From assembly GCF_040496035.1 (NCBI RefSeq), contig NZ_JBEPJZ010000001.1:1612001-1676000 (forward strand): 64,000 nucleotides of DNA, in the 5' to 3' direction. Positions 41,896 through 44,815 of the stretch are shown here, in pieces. A program made the position numbers and the translations under genes. Each line of letters begins with the position of its first letter. Position 1 is the first letter of the stretch. Under the pieces are notes generated by a model that did no database searches, had not been told where the DNA came from, and saw only the letters and a program-made list of their open reading frames with translations. This DNA comes from Agromyces sp. SYSU T00194 (GTDB lineage Bacteria; Actinomycetota; Actinomycetes; Actinomycetales; Microbacteriaceae).

Positions 41896-42900
41896 CTACG
41901 CCCCGACCAGCAGGTGCGGGTGCTGGGCCTCGACCACGTTCGGGTGCGCGCGCAGCCGGCTCTTCAGCCAGTTCTCGCCGAACACCGCGTGCAGCGGGTT
42001 CGCCGGGTCGTCGGTGGCGCCCGCGGCGTCGGCCGCGAGGGCCGGCGGCAGCTCGATCGACGGGATGCGCGCATCGAGCGACGGGCCGTGGAAGTAGGGG
42101 ATCGAGATGCGCTCGGTGCCGGGCTCGGGCGAGACCACGCGGTGCAGGGTCGCCTTGAGGTACCCGTCGGTGGCGATCTCGAGCAGCTCGCCGATGTTCA
42201 CCACGAACGACCCGGGCGGCGGGGTCACGTCGATCCACTCGCCCTCGTGCTCGACCTGCAGGCCCGCCTTGCCCTCCTCGACCGACAGCAGCGTCAGCAC
42301 GCCGAGGTCCTTGTGCGCCCCGACGCCCTGCGCGGGCTGCTCGGCCTCCACGCCGGGGTAGCGCACGATCTTCATGTAGGGCGACGGGGTCGCGAACGCG
42401 GCGTCGAACGCGTCGGCGGGGGCGCCGAGCGCCTCGGCCCAGGCGCGCAGCAGGCGCGTGCCGACCTCGTCGAGGCGGGCGATCCACTCCTCGGCGACCT
42501 CGCGCAGCTCGGGCAGCGCCTCGGGCCACAGGTTCGGGCCCTGCAGCGCCCAGTAGTCGGGGGTGTGCTCGCCCGCGGGCACCTCGGGGCGCTCGGCGCC
42601 GATGTCGATCTGCTCGCGGATGTCGACGCGGCCCTGCGTGCGCTCGCCGCCCATGCGGGTGTAGCCGCGGAAGTGCGGGCTGTGCACGTTCTCGATCGCG
42701 AGCTTGTGCGACTCGGGCAGCGCGAAGAACGCGCGGGCCACGTCGTACGCGCGGTCGATGAGCTCGGCGGGCACGCCGTGCCCGATGAGCGAGAAGAAGC
42801 CGACCTCGTGGGTCGCGCGTCGCAGGTCGTCGCGGAACGCGGCCTGCTGCTCGGGCGTGCCGTTCAGCAGGGAGAGGTCGAGGACGGGGATGCCGGTCAT
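41896..42900 (-). CDS. Isopenicillin-N-synthase-family 2-oxoglutarate/Fe(II) dioxygenase-like protein
   Basis: A 334-residue non-haem iron oxygenase. The N-terminal DIOX_N domain (IPVLDLSLLNGTPEQQAAFR, then VGFFSLIGHGVP) is followed by the jelly-roll core with the iron ligands HKD (GAHKDLGVLTLL) and His in ATLHRVVSPEPG, and the RISI motif (Arg-x-Ser) that binds the co-substrate carboxylate. There is no sign of penicillin genes nearby; most bacterial members have unknown substrates. ATG 42900 is preceded by AAAGGA. A cysteine-rich leader peptide and three hairpins lie upstream on the same strand, suggesting attenuation control. Confidence 0.88.
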   Translation of the reverse strand: MTGIPVLDLSLLNGTPEQQAAFRDDLRRATHEVGFFSLIGHGVPAELIDRAYDVARAFFALPESHKLAIENVHSPHFRGYTRMGGERTQGRVDIREQIDIGAERPEVPAGEHTPDYWALQGPNLWPEALPELREVAEEWIARLDEVGTRLLRAWAEALGAPADAFDAAFATPSPYMKIVRYPGVEAEQPAQGVGAHKDLGVLTLLSVEEGKAGLQVEHEGEWIDVTPPPGSFVVNIGELLEIATDGYLKATLHRVVSPEPGTERISIPYFHGPSLDARIPSIELPPALAADAAGATDDPANPLHAVFGENWLKSRLRAHPNVVEAQHPHLLVGA

Positions 42901-42976
42901 GATGACGGTCCTTTCAGGGGTGCCGGGAGAGGGTGCGCCGTCGATGCGGCCCCGGCATCCTGCTGGGTCGGCCCGT

Positions 42977-43011
42977 GGCATCCGTCCCGGTGAACCGGGT
43001 GAGCGGATGCC
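42977..43011 (-). promoter_or_regulatory. Nested hairpin in the dioxygenase leader (hairpin 3)
   Basis: GGCATCCG (42977-42984) pairs with CGGATGCC (43004-43011), and inside it CCCGG (42986-42990) pairs with CCGGG (42995-42999) over a four-base loop. It lies about 75 bases upstream of the dioxygenase ATG and could act as terminator or as alternative structure in an attenuator. Confidence 0.5.
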
Positions 43012-43062
43012 GCTGGGCTGACGCGGGCGCGTCGGATGCGGCGTGAGCGGGCTGCGGTCGGC

Positions 43063-43080
43063 GGCGCGGAGATTCGCGCC
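43063..43080 (-). promoter_or_regulatory. Hairpin GGCGCG/CGCGCC in the dioxygenase leader (hairpin 2)
   Basis: Perfect six-bp stem (43063-43068 with 43075-43080) and a six-base loop, directly after hairpin 1 in the direction of transcription. Confidence 0.5.
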
Positions 43081-43084
43081 CTGG

Positions 43085-43103
43085 GGTCGTCGGGGAGACG
43101 ACC
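43085..43103 (-). promoter_or_regulatory. Hairpin GGTCGTC/GACGACC just after the leader peptide stop (hairpin 1)
   Basis: Perfect seven-bp stem (43085-43091 with 43097-43103) with a five-base loop. It begins two bases after the leader stop codon, so a ribosome at that stop would cover its first arm. Confidence 0.55.
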
Positions 43104-43105
43104 GC

Positions 43106-43141
43106 CTAGCGGCGACAGCAGCGACAGGAGTTGGTGCTCAC
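43106..43141 (-). CDS. Putative cysteine-rich regulatory leader peptide, 11 aa
   Basis: GTG 43141 opens the short frame VSTNSCRCCRR ending at TAG 43106. Three cysteines and three to four arginines lie together in the last six codons. A TAGCCT -10 box (43157-43152, overlapping the lysE stop) would start an mRNA three to four bases before GTG, so the peptide would be translated as a leaderless reading frame. Actinobacteria are known to use cysteine-rich leader peptides to attenuate sulfur-related genes. The target here would be the dioxygenase 205 bases downstream. It is too short for statistical support as a gene; the combination with the hairpins is the evidence. Confidence 0.5.
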   Translation of the reverse strand: MSTNSCRCCRR

Positions 43142-43149
43142 GATGGCAG

Positions 43150-43848
43150 TCAGGCTACCACCAGCGAGACCGCGATCGCGACCATGACCACCGCGATCAC
43201 CCCGTCGAGCACGCGCCAGGCGGTCGGCCCCGCGAGCACGCGCCCGAGCAGCCGCGCGCCGTATCCGAGCGCCGTGAACCAGGCCAGGCTGCCGAGCGCC
43301 GCGCCGAGCGCGAAGGTCCACCGGGCGTCGCCGTAGGTGGCGCCGATGGAGCCCAGCAGCACGACCGTGTCGAGGTACACGTGCGGGTTCAGCCAGGTGA
43401 GCGCGAGGCAGGTGAGCACCACCGGCACGAGGCCGGTGCCGGCGCGGGCGGCGACGGCGACGGATGCCACGGGCCCGGCGCCGCCGTCTGCTGCGCGCTC
43501 GCCGGAGGCATCCGTCGCGCCCGCTCCCGCGGGGTCGGTCCCGACCACGAGCCCGGTCTCGCCGCCGCGCAGCGCGCGCCGCGCGGCGAGCACGCCGTAG
43601 CCGAACACGAACAGCGCGCCCGCCCACCGGGCCACGTCGACCAGCCACGGCACCCTGCCGATCGCCGCGCCCATGCCGCCGACGCCCGCGGCGATGAGCA
43701 GCGCGTCGGACGCCGTGCAGATCGCGACGACCGCGAGCACGTGCTCGCGTCGGATGCCCTGGCGCAGCACGAAGACGTTCTGCGCGCCGATGGCGACGAT
43801 GAGCGAGAGGCCGAGGCCGAGGCCGGCGGCGAGCACGGTGGGGTCCAC
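43150..43848 (-). CDS. LysE/ArgO-family amino acid exporter
   Basis: A 232-residue exporter of basic amino acids. The family motif is GLGLSLIVAIGAQNVFVLRQ near the N-terminus, with TASDALLIAAGVGGMG and LALTWLNPHVYLDTVVLLGS (the NPHVYLDT block) further on; six hydrophobic segments are visible. A Gly/Ala/Asp-rich loop (about residues 100-130) lies between helices three and four. Divergent from a LysR gene of the ArgP/LysG type, its expected activator. GTG 43848 follows a TAGCGT box by seven bases. Confidence 0.92.
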   Translation of the reverse strand: MDPTVLAAGLGLGLSLIVAIGAQNVFVLRQGIRREHVLAVVAICTASDALLIAAGVGGMGAAIGRVPWLVDVARWAGALFVFGYGVLAARRALRGGETGLVVGTDPAGAGATDASGERAADGGAGPVASVAVAARAGTGLVPVVLTCLALTWLNPHVYLDTVVLLGSIGATYGDARWTFALGAALGSLAWFTALGYGARLLGRVLAGPTAWRVLDGVIAVVMVAIAVSLVVA

Positions 43849-43918: not shown

Positions 43919-44815
43919 ATGCAGATTCCGCTCGACCTGGCCCGCACCCTCGCCGCGGTCGTCGACGCGGGCACCTTCGAGGCGGCGGCGGCCGAGCTCT
44001 CCGTCACGCCGTCCGCCGTCTCGCAGCGCGTGAAGCAGCTCGAGCAGCGGCTCGGGCGCGTGCTGGTCGTGCGCGCCAAGCCCGTGCGTCCGACCGAGGC
44101 CGGCGCGGCCGTGGTGCGCCTCGCCCGCCAGCTGGCGCTCCTCGAGCACGACGCGCTCGCGGCGTTCGGCGGCGACCCCGGGGCATCCGACCGCCGCGCC
44201 ACCGTGCCGCTCGCCGTCAACGCCGACTCGCTCGCCACCTGGTTCCTGCCCGCGCTCGCCGCGGTGGAGCGCGAGCACGCGGTCGTGTTCGACCTGCACC
44301 GCGACGACCAGGACTTCACCGCGGGGCTCCTCGAGTCGGGCACCGTGATGGGTGCCGTCACCTCGCGCGCCGAGCCCGTCGCCGGATGCCTCGTGCGGCC
44401 GCTCGGCGTCATGCGCTACACCGCCGTGGCCACGCCGGCGTACGTCGCCAGGCACCGGCGGGAGGCGGCGGACGCCGCGTGGCTGGCCCGTGCGCCGCGC
44501 ATCGACCTCGACCGGCGCGACGACCTCCAGGCGCAGTACCTGCACGCCCGGGGCGTCGACGACGCCGGCGCCCCGCGCCATTACGTGCCCGCCTCGAACG
44601 ACTTCGCGGCGGCGGTCAAGCTCGGGCTCGGCTGGGGGCTGCTGCCGGGCTTCCAGTCGGACGCCGAGCTCGCCGACGGCAGCCTGGTCGCCCTCGGCGG
44701 GCCGCCCGTCGACGTGCCGCTGCACTGGCAGCAGTGGAACCTCGGCTCGCCGCTGCTGGACGCGGTGGCCGACGGCCTCCTGCGCGCCGCGCGCCACGAG
44801 CTCCTGGCGGCCTAG
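43919..44815 (+). CDS. ArgP/LysG-type LysR transcriptional regulator
   Basis: A 298-residue activator. It begins MQIPLDLARTLAAVVDAGTF with helix-turn-helix LSVTPSAVSQRVKQLEQRLG, and its effector domain contains LAVNADSLATWFLPALAAVE, the segment typical of ArgP (IciA)/LysG. In Corynebacterium, LysG senses lysine or arginine and turns on the divergent lysE gene; gene order here is the same, so the same role is probable. It converges on the dGTPase gene with four bases between stops. Confidence 0.92.
   Translation: MQIPLDLARTLAAVVDAGTFEAAAAELSVTPSAVSQRVKQLEQRLGRVLVVRAKPVRPTEAGAAVVRLARQLALLEHDALAAFGGDPGASDRRATVPLAVNADSLATWFLPALAAVEREHAVVFDLHRDDQDFTAGLLESGTVMGAVTSRAEPVAGCLVRPLGVMRYTAVATPAYVARHRREAADAAWLARAPRIDLDRRDDLQAQYLHARGVDDAGAPRHYVPASNDFAAAVKLGLGWGLLPGFQSDAELADGSLVALGGPPVDVPLHWQQWNLGSPLLDAVADGLLRAARHELLAA

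Follow-up and report, generated by a model that had tools for sequence, protein, structure and literature searches.

What does a very short, cysteine-rich reading frame do upstream of an oxygenase gene in Agromyces sp. SYSU T00194? The question was addressed in a 64-kb window (64,000 nucleotides, positions 1,612,001 to 1,676,000 of contig NZ_JBEPJZ010000001.1); all positions are those of this window, and both the leader and the oxygenase gene lie on the minus strand. The comparisons described below make it probable, to a good degree of confidence, that the frame belongs to a cysteine-sensing, ribosome-mediated leader of a known actinobacterial kind, controlling an oxygenase of the Fe(II)/2-oxoacid type that takes part in sulfur supply for cysteine. 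Judged from sequence comparison, shortage of cysteine very probably switches the oxygenase gene on.

A first-pass annotation had described an 11-codon frame, VSTNSCRCCRR, at 43141-43106 (minus strand), which ends two bases before a 7-bp hairpin, then a 6-bp hairpin, a nested 8+5-bp hairpin and the ATG of the oxygenase, with a TAGCCT -10 box just upstream. Frame and first hairpin were read in the sequence as described, the two further hairpins and the ATG were all placed, and the box was located at 43157-43152. The features are as follows.

43152..43157, minus strand: -10-like box TAGCCT, 10 nt between the box and the leader GTG
43106..43141, minus strand: leader open reading frame VSTNSCRCCRR*, 11 codons, GTG start, TAG stop; relatives keep VSTxxCxCCRR*
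43136..43141, minus strand: helix P1, 5' strand GUGAGC, start codon included; partner at 43048-43043
43043..43048, minus strand: helix P1, 3' strand GCUCAC
43113..43122, minus strand: helix P2, 5' strand GCUGC, U mismatch, GUCG; covers cysteine codons 2 and 3
43051..43060, minus strand: helix P2, 3' strand CGAC C GCAGC
43085..43103, minus strand: hairpin A, 7 bp (43103-43097/43091-43085), two bases 3' of the stop codon
43063..43080, minus strand: hairpin B, 6 bp, GGCGCG/CGCGCC (43080-43075/43068-43063)
42977..43011, minus strand: nested 8+5-bp hairpin, GGCATCCG ... CGGATGCC
42908..42913, minus strand: Shine-Dalgarno sequence of the oxygenase gene, AAGGAC
41896..42900, minus strand: gene for a DIOX_N / 2-oxoglutarate (2OG)-Fe(II) oxygenase, 334 amino acids (PF14226, PF03171); its ATG (42900-42898) lies about 75 nt past the nested hairpin

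Occurrence of the leader before oxygenase genes

The leader (GTG AGC ACC AAC TCC TGT CGC TGC TGT CGC CGC TAG) was the sole frame in the window, both strands included, with an ATG or GTG start, 5-14 sense codons and at least three cysteine codons. Dinucleotide shuffling of the window (60 shuffles) gave a mean of 0.48 such frames, and a frame with a TANNNT box was found in none of the 60. The pattern T-A-N-N-N-T was present at the -10 box in 16 of 16 rows of an alignment of Agromyces and Promicromonospora leaders; a promoter scan found no sigma-70 consensus promoter at the leader. Because the -10 box sits 10 nt before the GTG, it is plausible that the transcript starts at this codon or a few nucleotides upstream of it and is therefore leaderless.

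Conservation was assessed in 80 of the 85 named loci with a relative of the oxygenase, and a leader was counted where a frame with at least three cysteine codons, including CC, was present no more than 320 nt upstream. Leaders were found directly before the oxygenase gene in 28 of the 80 loci (L037 was included despite a disturbed gene start), and a TANNNT box preceded all 28; the remaining 52 had no such cysteine frame within 320 nt, even when the box was ignored. The nearest named orthologues, which are 85-94% identical, were from Agromyces, and all 10 Agromyces loci carried a leader of the form VSTxxCRCCRR. Five leaders were from Promicromonospora (VSTF.C[TPS]CCRR), four were of the Microcella type M.RL.CR.CCCRSS, two were of the form MSIRLC..CCR, and seven were of the CCRCCR/CCCCCR type, all of these from metagenome bins. 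In two loci beyond the 28, L027 and L032, the leader was located about 2.4 kb upstream, heading an operon.

An oxygenase homologue was detected in 133 of 398 Microbacteriaceae genomes at E ≤ 1e-60. Upstream stretches were taken from 60 of the 137 listed places in this family, these being the best-scoring, minus five Agromyces and seven others. The leader was adjacent in seven, at the head of an operon in five and absent from 48, and five of the 12 leaders repeat named loci with identical oxygenases; the 48 counted as leaderless include L136 (VRACMCL, two cysteines) and also L120 and L139, which have short two-cysteine frames and no -10 box. In a tree of 130 different oxygenases the leader genes formed one clade, with 38 of its 40 rows carrying the leader. 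The tree was quickly made, with an SH-aLRT support of 86 for the 40-row clade and 95 for 39 of its rows. The leaderless rows within the clade are L095 and L143. The oxygenase gene of L143 (G336:C1:224278-228573) is a second copy, situated behind SufC-like, short SufT-like and CGL genes (SufC-like and SufT-like were named by eye from sequence), and has no cysteine leader by the criteria used.

Predicted RNA fold and mode of action

The leader RNA folds better than shuffled sequences, with z scores of -3.9 (244 nt) and -3.6 (112 nt) and none of 200 shuffles as good in either case. In the predicted fold, P1 (GUGAGC/GCUCAC) and P2 (cysteine codons/CGACnGCAGC) close over hairpins A and B, an arrangement missing from the first-pass annotation, and the cysteine codons pair with downstream mRNA via P2. 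Three of 30 pairs were changed on both sides across the 16 Agromyces and Promicromonospora leaders. Two of these are in hairpin A (G-C in 10, A-U in five and G-U in one; U-A in 11 and C-G in five), in which another pair is broken in one of the 16, and the third is a weak end pair of P2 that is also broken in three leaders. A second group, of eight compact leaders, had five of 21 pairs changed on both sides. Hairpin A takes in the stop codon in this group (CTAGTTC/GAACTAG vs CTAACG/CGTTAG), and the P2 pair at the cysteine wobble base is C-G in L026, U-G in L025 and U-A in the other six. The 3' strands of P2 from the TTG group pair better with 5' strands of their own kind than with those of Agromyces and Promicromonospora. 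CTG-group 3' strands, however, pair well with every kind of 5' strand, so that cross-pairing of P2 gives modest support. As the alignments stand, the predicted fold is supported by conservation and by some compensatory changes; the first-pass annotation had proposed that cysteine codons and stems be compared upstream of orthologous oxygenases, and both were found to be conserved there, with compensatory changes.

The nested 8+5-bp hairpin requires caution, being made of GGATGC/GCATCC and having a stem that is not common to the five Promicromonospora leaders. The window contains GGATGC 144 times, where 55 are expected and none of 100 shuffles reached 144; inverted pairs GCATCC-N3..33-GGATGC number four against 0.36 expected, the nested hairpin being one of them.

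A covariance model was built from the eight compact oxygenase leaders and run on 35 other sources; each of its 23 matches at E ≤ 1 fell on the position of a leader. These included five leaders of operons headed by cbs, the cystathionine beta-synthase (CBS) gene (E 1e-6 to 2e-9), L037, almost identical to one of the build sequences, and, as a weak match, the leader of the Agromyces genome's own cbs gene (E 0.098). The 12 of 35 sources unmatched at E ≤ 1 were one Agromyces, six cbs leaders and five leaderless controls. A model from the 16 long leaders matched L089 and L090 strongly and L025, L026, L040 and L028 weakly, together with three weak off-target matches. When the compact model was run on 199 Microbacteriaceae genomes, under stricter filters by which weak matches are lost, six matches were obtained at E ≤ 0.01, four before cbs and two before the oxygenase gene; one (G189) is the build sequence L026 recovered, and two of the cbs matches are the L027 and L032 operons. 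At this threshold the scan missed the leader of the window and the other Agromyces leaders searched. Rfam gave no match in the leader at the gathering score or at E ≤ 1, and a single match (E 0.38), outside the leader, on L018, L025, L028, L030 and L225. A copy of the 15-base cysteine core elsewhere in the same genome (C1:827550) was set aside, as it lies inside a coding frame by eye and has no leader frame.

A conserved fold with compensatory changes, in which the start codon itself is paired, might also be expected if RNA structure alone were conserved, for example as a protein or ligand site, and the reading frame were incidental. This is very improbable given that all 28 leaders keep the TANNNT box, start, frame, stop and three to five cysteine codons, and that the frame is kept despite varied lengths (11 to 15 codons) and sequences (VST.., MSR.., MNA.., MHL..). 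The first cysteine codon, moreover, is TGT in 26 of 26 aligned leaders, though it lies outside P2 in the window.

A ribosome-mediated leader would operate as follows. Transcription would start at or a few bases before the GTG at 43141, as the position of the -10 box suggests, and a ribosome would load at the 5' end and read the cysteine codons. With ample Cys-tRNA the ribosome would pass, allowing P1 and P2 to refold around hairpins A and B and giving low expression; with scarce Cys-tRNA it would stall on the cysteine codons, which would prevent P2 (and P1) from forming and let the oxygenase be expressed. The series of hairpins after the leader peptide also recalls classical transcriptional attenuation of the trp-operon kind, in which an intrinsic terminator acts. 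We consider such an attenuator improbable, for no terminator-like site with a T-run was found between 42880 and 43250, and a study of mycobacterial cys leaders found no conserved terminator hairpins either (PMC1262725).

The effect of stalling was assessed by folding each of 42 leaders (L037 omitted; 40 shuffles each) in the absence of a ribosome and with one placed on the first cysteine codon, on the second, or at the stop codon. Stalling made the Shine-Dalgarno sequence cheaper to open: for the genome's own cbs leader the cost was 10.1 kcal/mol before and 0.4 after (matched by 2 of 40 shuffles), for L025 7.7 and 1.4 (0 of 40) and for L040 5.6 and 1.8 (1 of 40). On these folding calculations, exposure of the ribosome-binding site appears a reasonable model for part of the leaders, and would probably be the output in certain compact relatives and at the genome's own cbs gene. 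Sequestration of the Shine-Dalgarno sequence was rejected for the Agromyces leader, where stalling brings little gain, comparable to that in shuffles, and exposure of the ribosome-binding site is therefore not supported there. The candidate output steps for this long leader are Rho-dependent termination or an indirect switch; C (0.46) exceeds G (0.31) in the stretch from P1 to the Shine-Dalgarno sequence, a bias that would favour Rho but is no proof of it.

Association with sulfur genes

The first-pass annotation had linked the oxygenase to sulfur, and this link was strengthened by operon structure and by the neighbours of its homologues. Five distinct loci, all in Microbacteriaceae (L027/L092, L032/L098, L097, L100 and L108), have the order cysteine leader, CBS, CGL/MetB, oxygenase, with the leaders MNFSSTCCCL, VINTRLCCCCL, VITSRLCCCR, MFIPRLCCCCCR and VITSRLCCCCR. 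By NCBIfam the CBS of L027 scored 483 bits as cystathionine beta-synthase, below the cut-off of 510, and the second protein 634 as cystathionine gamma-synthase, above the cut-off of 513; the CBS and CGL of the other four operons were tblastn matches of 68-74%. The Agromyces genome itself has a leader, VISSLCCR*, with the box TAGAGT, before its own cbs gene (G000:C1:1780843-1780968, L225:544-669), located where a model match (E 2.1) and the family search agreed. This cbs gene matches TIGR01137 with 518 bits, over the cut-off, and the next gene is CGL-like, 64% to that of L027. The cysteine codons of VISSLCCR* are predicted to pair beside the CBS Shine-Dalgarno sequence and start codon, and the modelling makes this leader a good candidate for a translational cysteine leader. 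No CC leader was found in a 2-kb stretch (L224) at the PAPS-reductase/sulfite-reductase operon of the same genome, whose start may be further upstream; the stretch holds one frame with two separate cysteines and no -10 box. Upstream of leader and cbs in L228 and L230, on the same strand, is a gene for an NtaA/DmoA-like FMN monooxygenase (53% to the reference from L063, introduced below).

The residues H196, D198, H253, R264 and S266, representing the HxD...H metal ligands and RxS, were invariant in 33 oxygenase sequences, and a structure model was obtained with a pLDDT of 94. The nearest solved structures, at 35-36% identity, are 6jyv ('isopenicillin N synthase' of P. aeruginosa PAO1) and 9ovh (an ancestral ethylene-forming enzyme); isopenicillin N synthase proper was rejected, since its structures 2bjs/1bk0 scored 44 bits where 9ovh scored 184. 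Use of 2-oxoglutarate is suggested by kinship, RxS alone being no proof. The family is large, 6524 of 7997 scored candidates reaching E ≤ 1e-40, and not all need share a function. In a table of strongly changed genes of P. aeruginosa (PMC8151288), PA4191, an isopenicillin N synthase family oxygenase, goes up on excess of the regulator PA3027, and so do PA4192-4193, PA2202-2203, cysT and the genes for a TauE-type exporter and for ABC transporters.

Gene neighbourhoods were assessed up to 3 kb on each side in 33 loci outside Actinomycetota (L054-L086, two without a phylum name). A sulfur gene was located near the oxygenase homologue in 21: a MetY-type sulfhydrylase in nine, MetQ in 10 (seven at 29-40% identity), a CuyA-type gene in one and an LLM/SfnB pair in one (weak, 32-35%). 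The sulfur references were picked after inspection from L063, L066, L077 and L027 and named with NCBIfam, and therefore the figure of 21 of 33 is not a blind test; several of the loci are also close kin (four Acinetobacter, three Halomonas-type). Matches to MetN only were left uncounted, because ABC ATPases match too. As background, just L143 (CGL) among the leaderless actinobacterial loci had a counted sulfur gene, downstream coverage being 0.3 kb for 48 of these loci.

These operons and neighbours suggest that the oxygenase would release or convert sulfur from a compound for the CBS/CGL route. It might instead handle a by-product of the pathway, such as the 2-oxobutyrate that CGL releases, behind a leader that is real and cysteine-responsive, and so have no role in sulfur supply. 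The CBS-CGL-oxygenase operons would fit such a role, as would the name '2-oxobutyrate oxidase', which the database gives to three of 120 listed homologues (one each from Agromyces, Promicromonospora and Nakamurella). We regard this as unlikely: the name is an annotation, and MetY, MetQ/MetNI, SfnB and SsuA-like neighbours elsewhere point to sulfur acquisition. An oxygenase of sulfur supply is also the basis of a wider proposal, namely a portable cysteine-sensing RNA family, common to cbs operons and the stand-alone oxygenase gene in two actinobacterial families, that governs an oxygenase step in sulfur supply which has gone unrecognised. This is put forward tentatively and is rather doubtful. 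If it is true, the oxygenase would oxidise a sulfur compound, for example by oxidative S-dealkylation, yielding a thiol (homocysteine, for instance) that CBS/CGL could use, or by C-S cleavage to a species fixable by MetY; in Proteobacteria and Chloroflexota this sulfur step would fall to the same enzyme family.

Several observations weigh against a cysteine leader governing sulfur supply. The sister clade of the leader genes (57 rows) has no leaders by the criteria used and no counted sulfur gene near its 57 homologues, and the stand-alone leader-bearing loci have no counted sulfur gene nearby apart from the leader. At the cut-off applied, the oxygenase was present in five genomes of the same genus and missing from five others listed. 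A CC leader was found before eight of 40 other Microbacteriaceae cbs genes, a low share, with a TANNNT box in all eight. Among the 16 long leaders hairpin B is invariant, and P1 has five of six pairs invariant and the sixth C-G (13) or U-G (3), so that neither provides evidence of covariation; the U-C mismatch of P2 is present in 11 of 11 Agromyces leaders, and L028 and L038 break several consensus pairs. The opening cost in the leader of the window changed from 2.5 to 2.2 kcal/mol (a gain of about 0.4), with 25 of 40 shuffles as good, and nine of the 42 leaders had three or fewer of 40 shuffles as good.

The leader would serve as a label, showing the cell state that calls for an enzyme filed solely as 'isopenicillin N synthase family'. 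Taken with the CBS-CGL-oxygenase operons and the MetY and MetQ neighbours, it would turn a large uncharacterised oxygenase family into testable candidate sulfur-supply enzymes.

Known cysteine leaders and the arginine alternative

Cysteine leader peptides without terminators were predicted in 2005 for cys operons of Mycobacterium and P. acnes and for cbs of Bifidobacterium longum (PMC1262725), and were proposed again in 2015 from ribosome profiling (PMC4633059). They were tested in M. smegmatis in 2020, as described in PMC9031893 and PMC13236596, and a polycysteine leader is described as controlling translation by attenuation (PMC9031893). The first-pass annotation had spoken of an 'undescribed sulfur-linked system', a claim that does not hold, as actinobacterial cysteine leaders, including those before cbs, date from the 2005 prediction. 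The leaders of PMC1262725 resemble those found here in having cysteine codons near the stop codon, cbs among the targets and no terminator; no conserved terminator hairpins were found there, whereas the stems described here are conserved with compensatory changes. No treatment of a cysteine leader before an oxygenase was recognised among the best-ranked papers of the literature searched, mostly without subscription papers, which is weak evidence of absence. As far as was searched, the oxygenase as a target, the occurrence in Microbacteriaceae and Promicromonosporaceae and the shared RNA fold are new, and control by cysteine leaders would be extended to these two families with a defined fold.

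The polycysteine leaderless short open reading frames of mycobacteria (Canestrari, 2020) reportedly act through stalled ribosomes that keep an inhibitory mRNA structure open. The similarity lies in a very short cysteine-rich frame that precedes sulfur genes, at the 5' end of the mRNA or close to it. Unlike those frames, the leader here has a DIOX_N-type oxygenase as its target and a closed P1/P2 and two-hairpin fold common to Microbacteriaceae and Promicromonosporaceae, and in the window no pairing is predicted between the cysteine codons and the Shine-Dalgarno sequence. The oxygenase would resemble the TauD/AtsK type in using Fe(II)/2OG oxygenase chemistry to gain sulfur, but consists of DIOX_N plus 2OG-FeII_Oxy, a Pfam architecture unlike that of TauD. 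The alkyl sulfatase Rv3406 is described as a 2OG-dependent sulfur-scavenging dioxygenase of this type (PMC3675115). For 6jyv and 9ovh, the closest solved relatives, no demonstrated role in sulfur supply was seen.

Cys-tRNA or Arg-tRNA had both been offered in the first-pass annotation as the signal. Sensing of arginine, or of arginine together with cysteine, is suggested by the three arginine codons of the Agromyces CRCCRR and by two nearby genes, for a LysE/ArgO-type exporter and an ArgP-type regulator.

43150..43848, minus strand: LysE-type exporter gene, upstream of the leader (PF01810; TIGR00948 below cut-off)
43919..44815, plus strand: argP/lysG regulator gene, divergent from the exporter gene (TIGR03298 over cut-off)

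Of these two, cysteine is favoured and arginine was rejected. The residue between the cysteine codons varies across relatives (R, T, P, S or none), CRCC becoming CTCC, CPCC, CSCC or CCCCC; Promicromonospora has Thr, Pro or Ser in place of the arginine, and leaders of the MNALLCCCCCR type retain just the final one. As these arginine codons are replaced and the cysteine codons kept, cysteine rather than arginine is read. The same RNA, moreover, stands at the head of cbs-cgl operons, and the terminal CGC codons are partly accounted for by pairing. Of 140 loci searched, the exporter gene was found upstream in all 10 from Agromyces and in none of the remaining 130, and is therefore a neighbour and not part of the leader unit. 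With this evidence, sensing of arginine by the leader is highly unlikely. The gene downstream of the oxygenase encodes a convergent LysR-type regulator.

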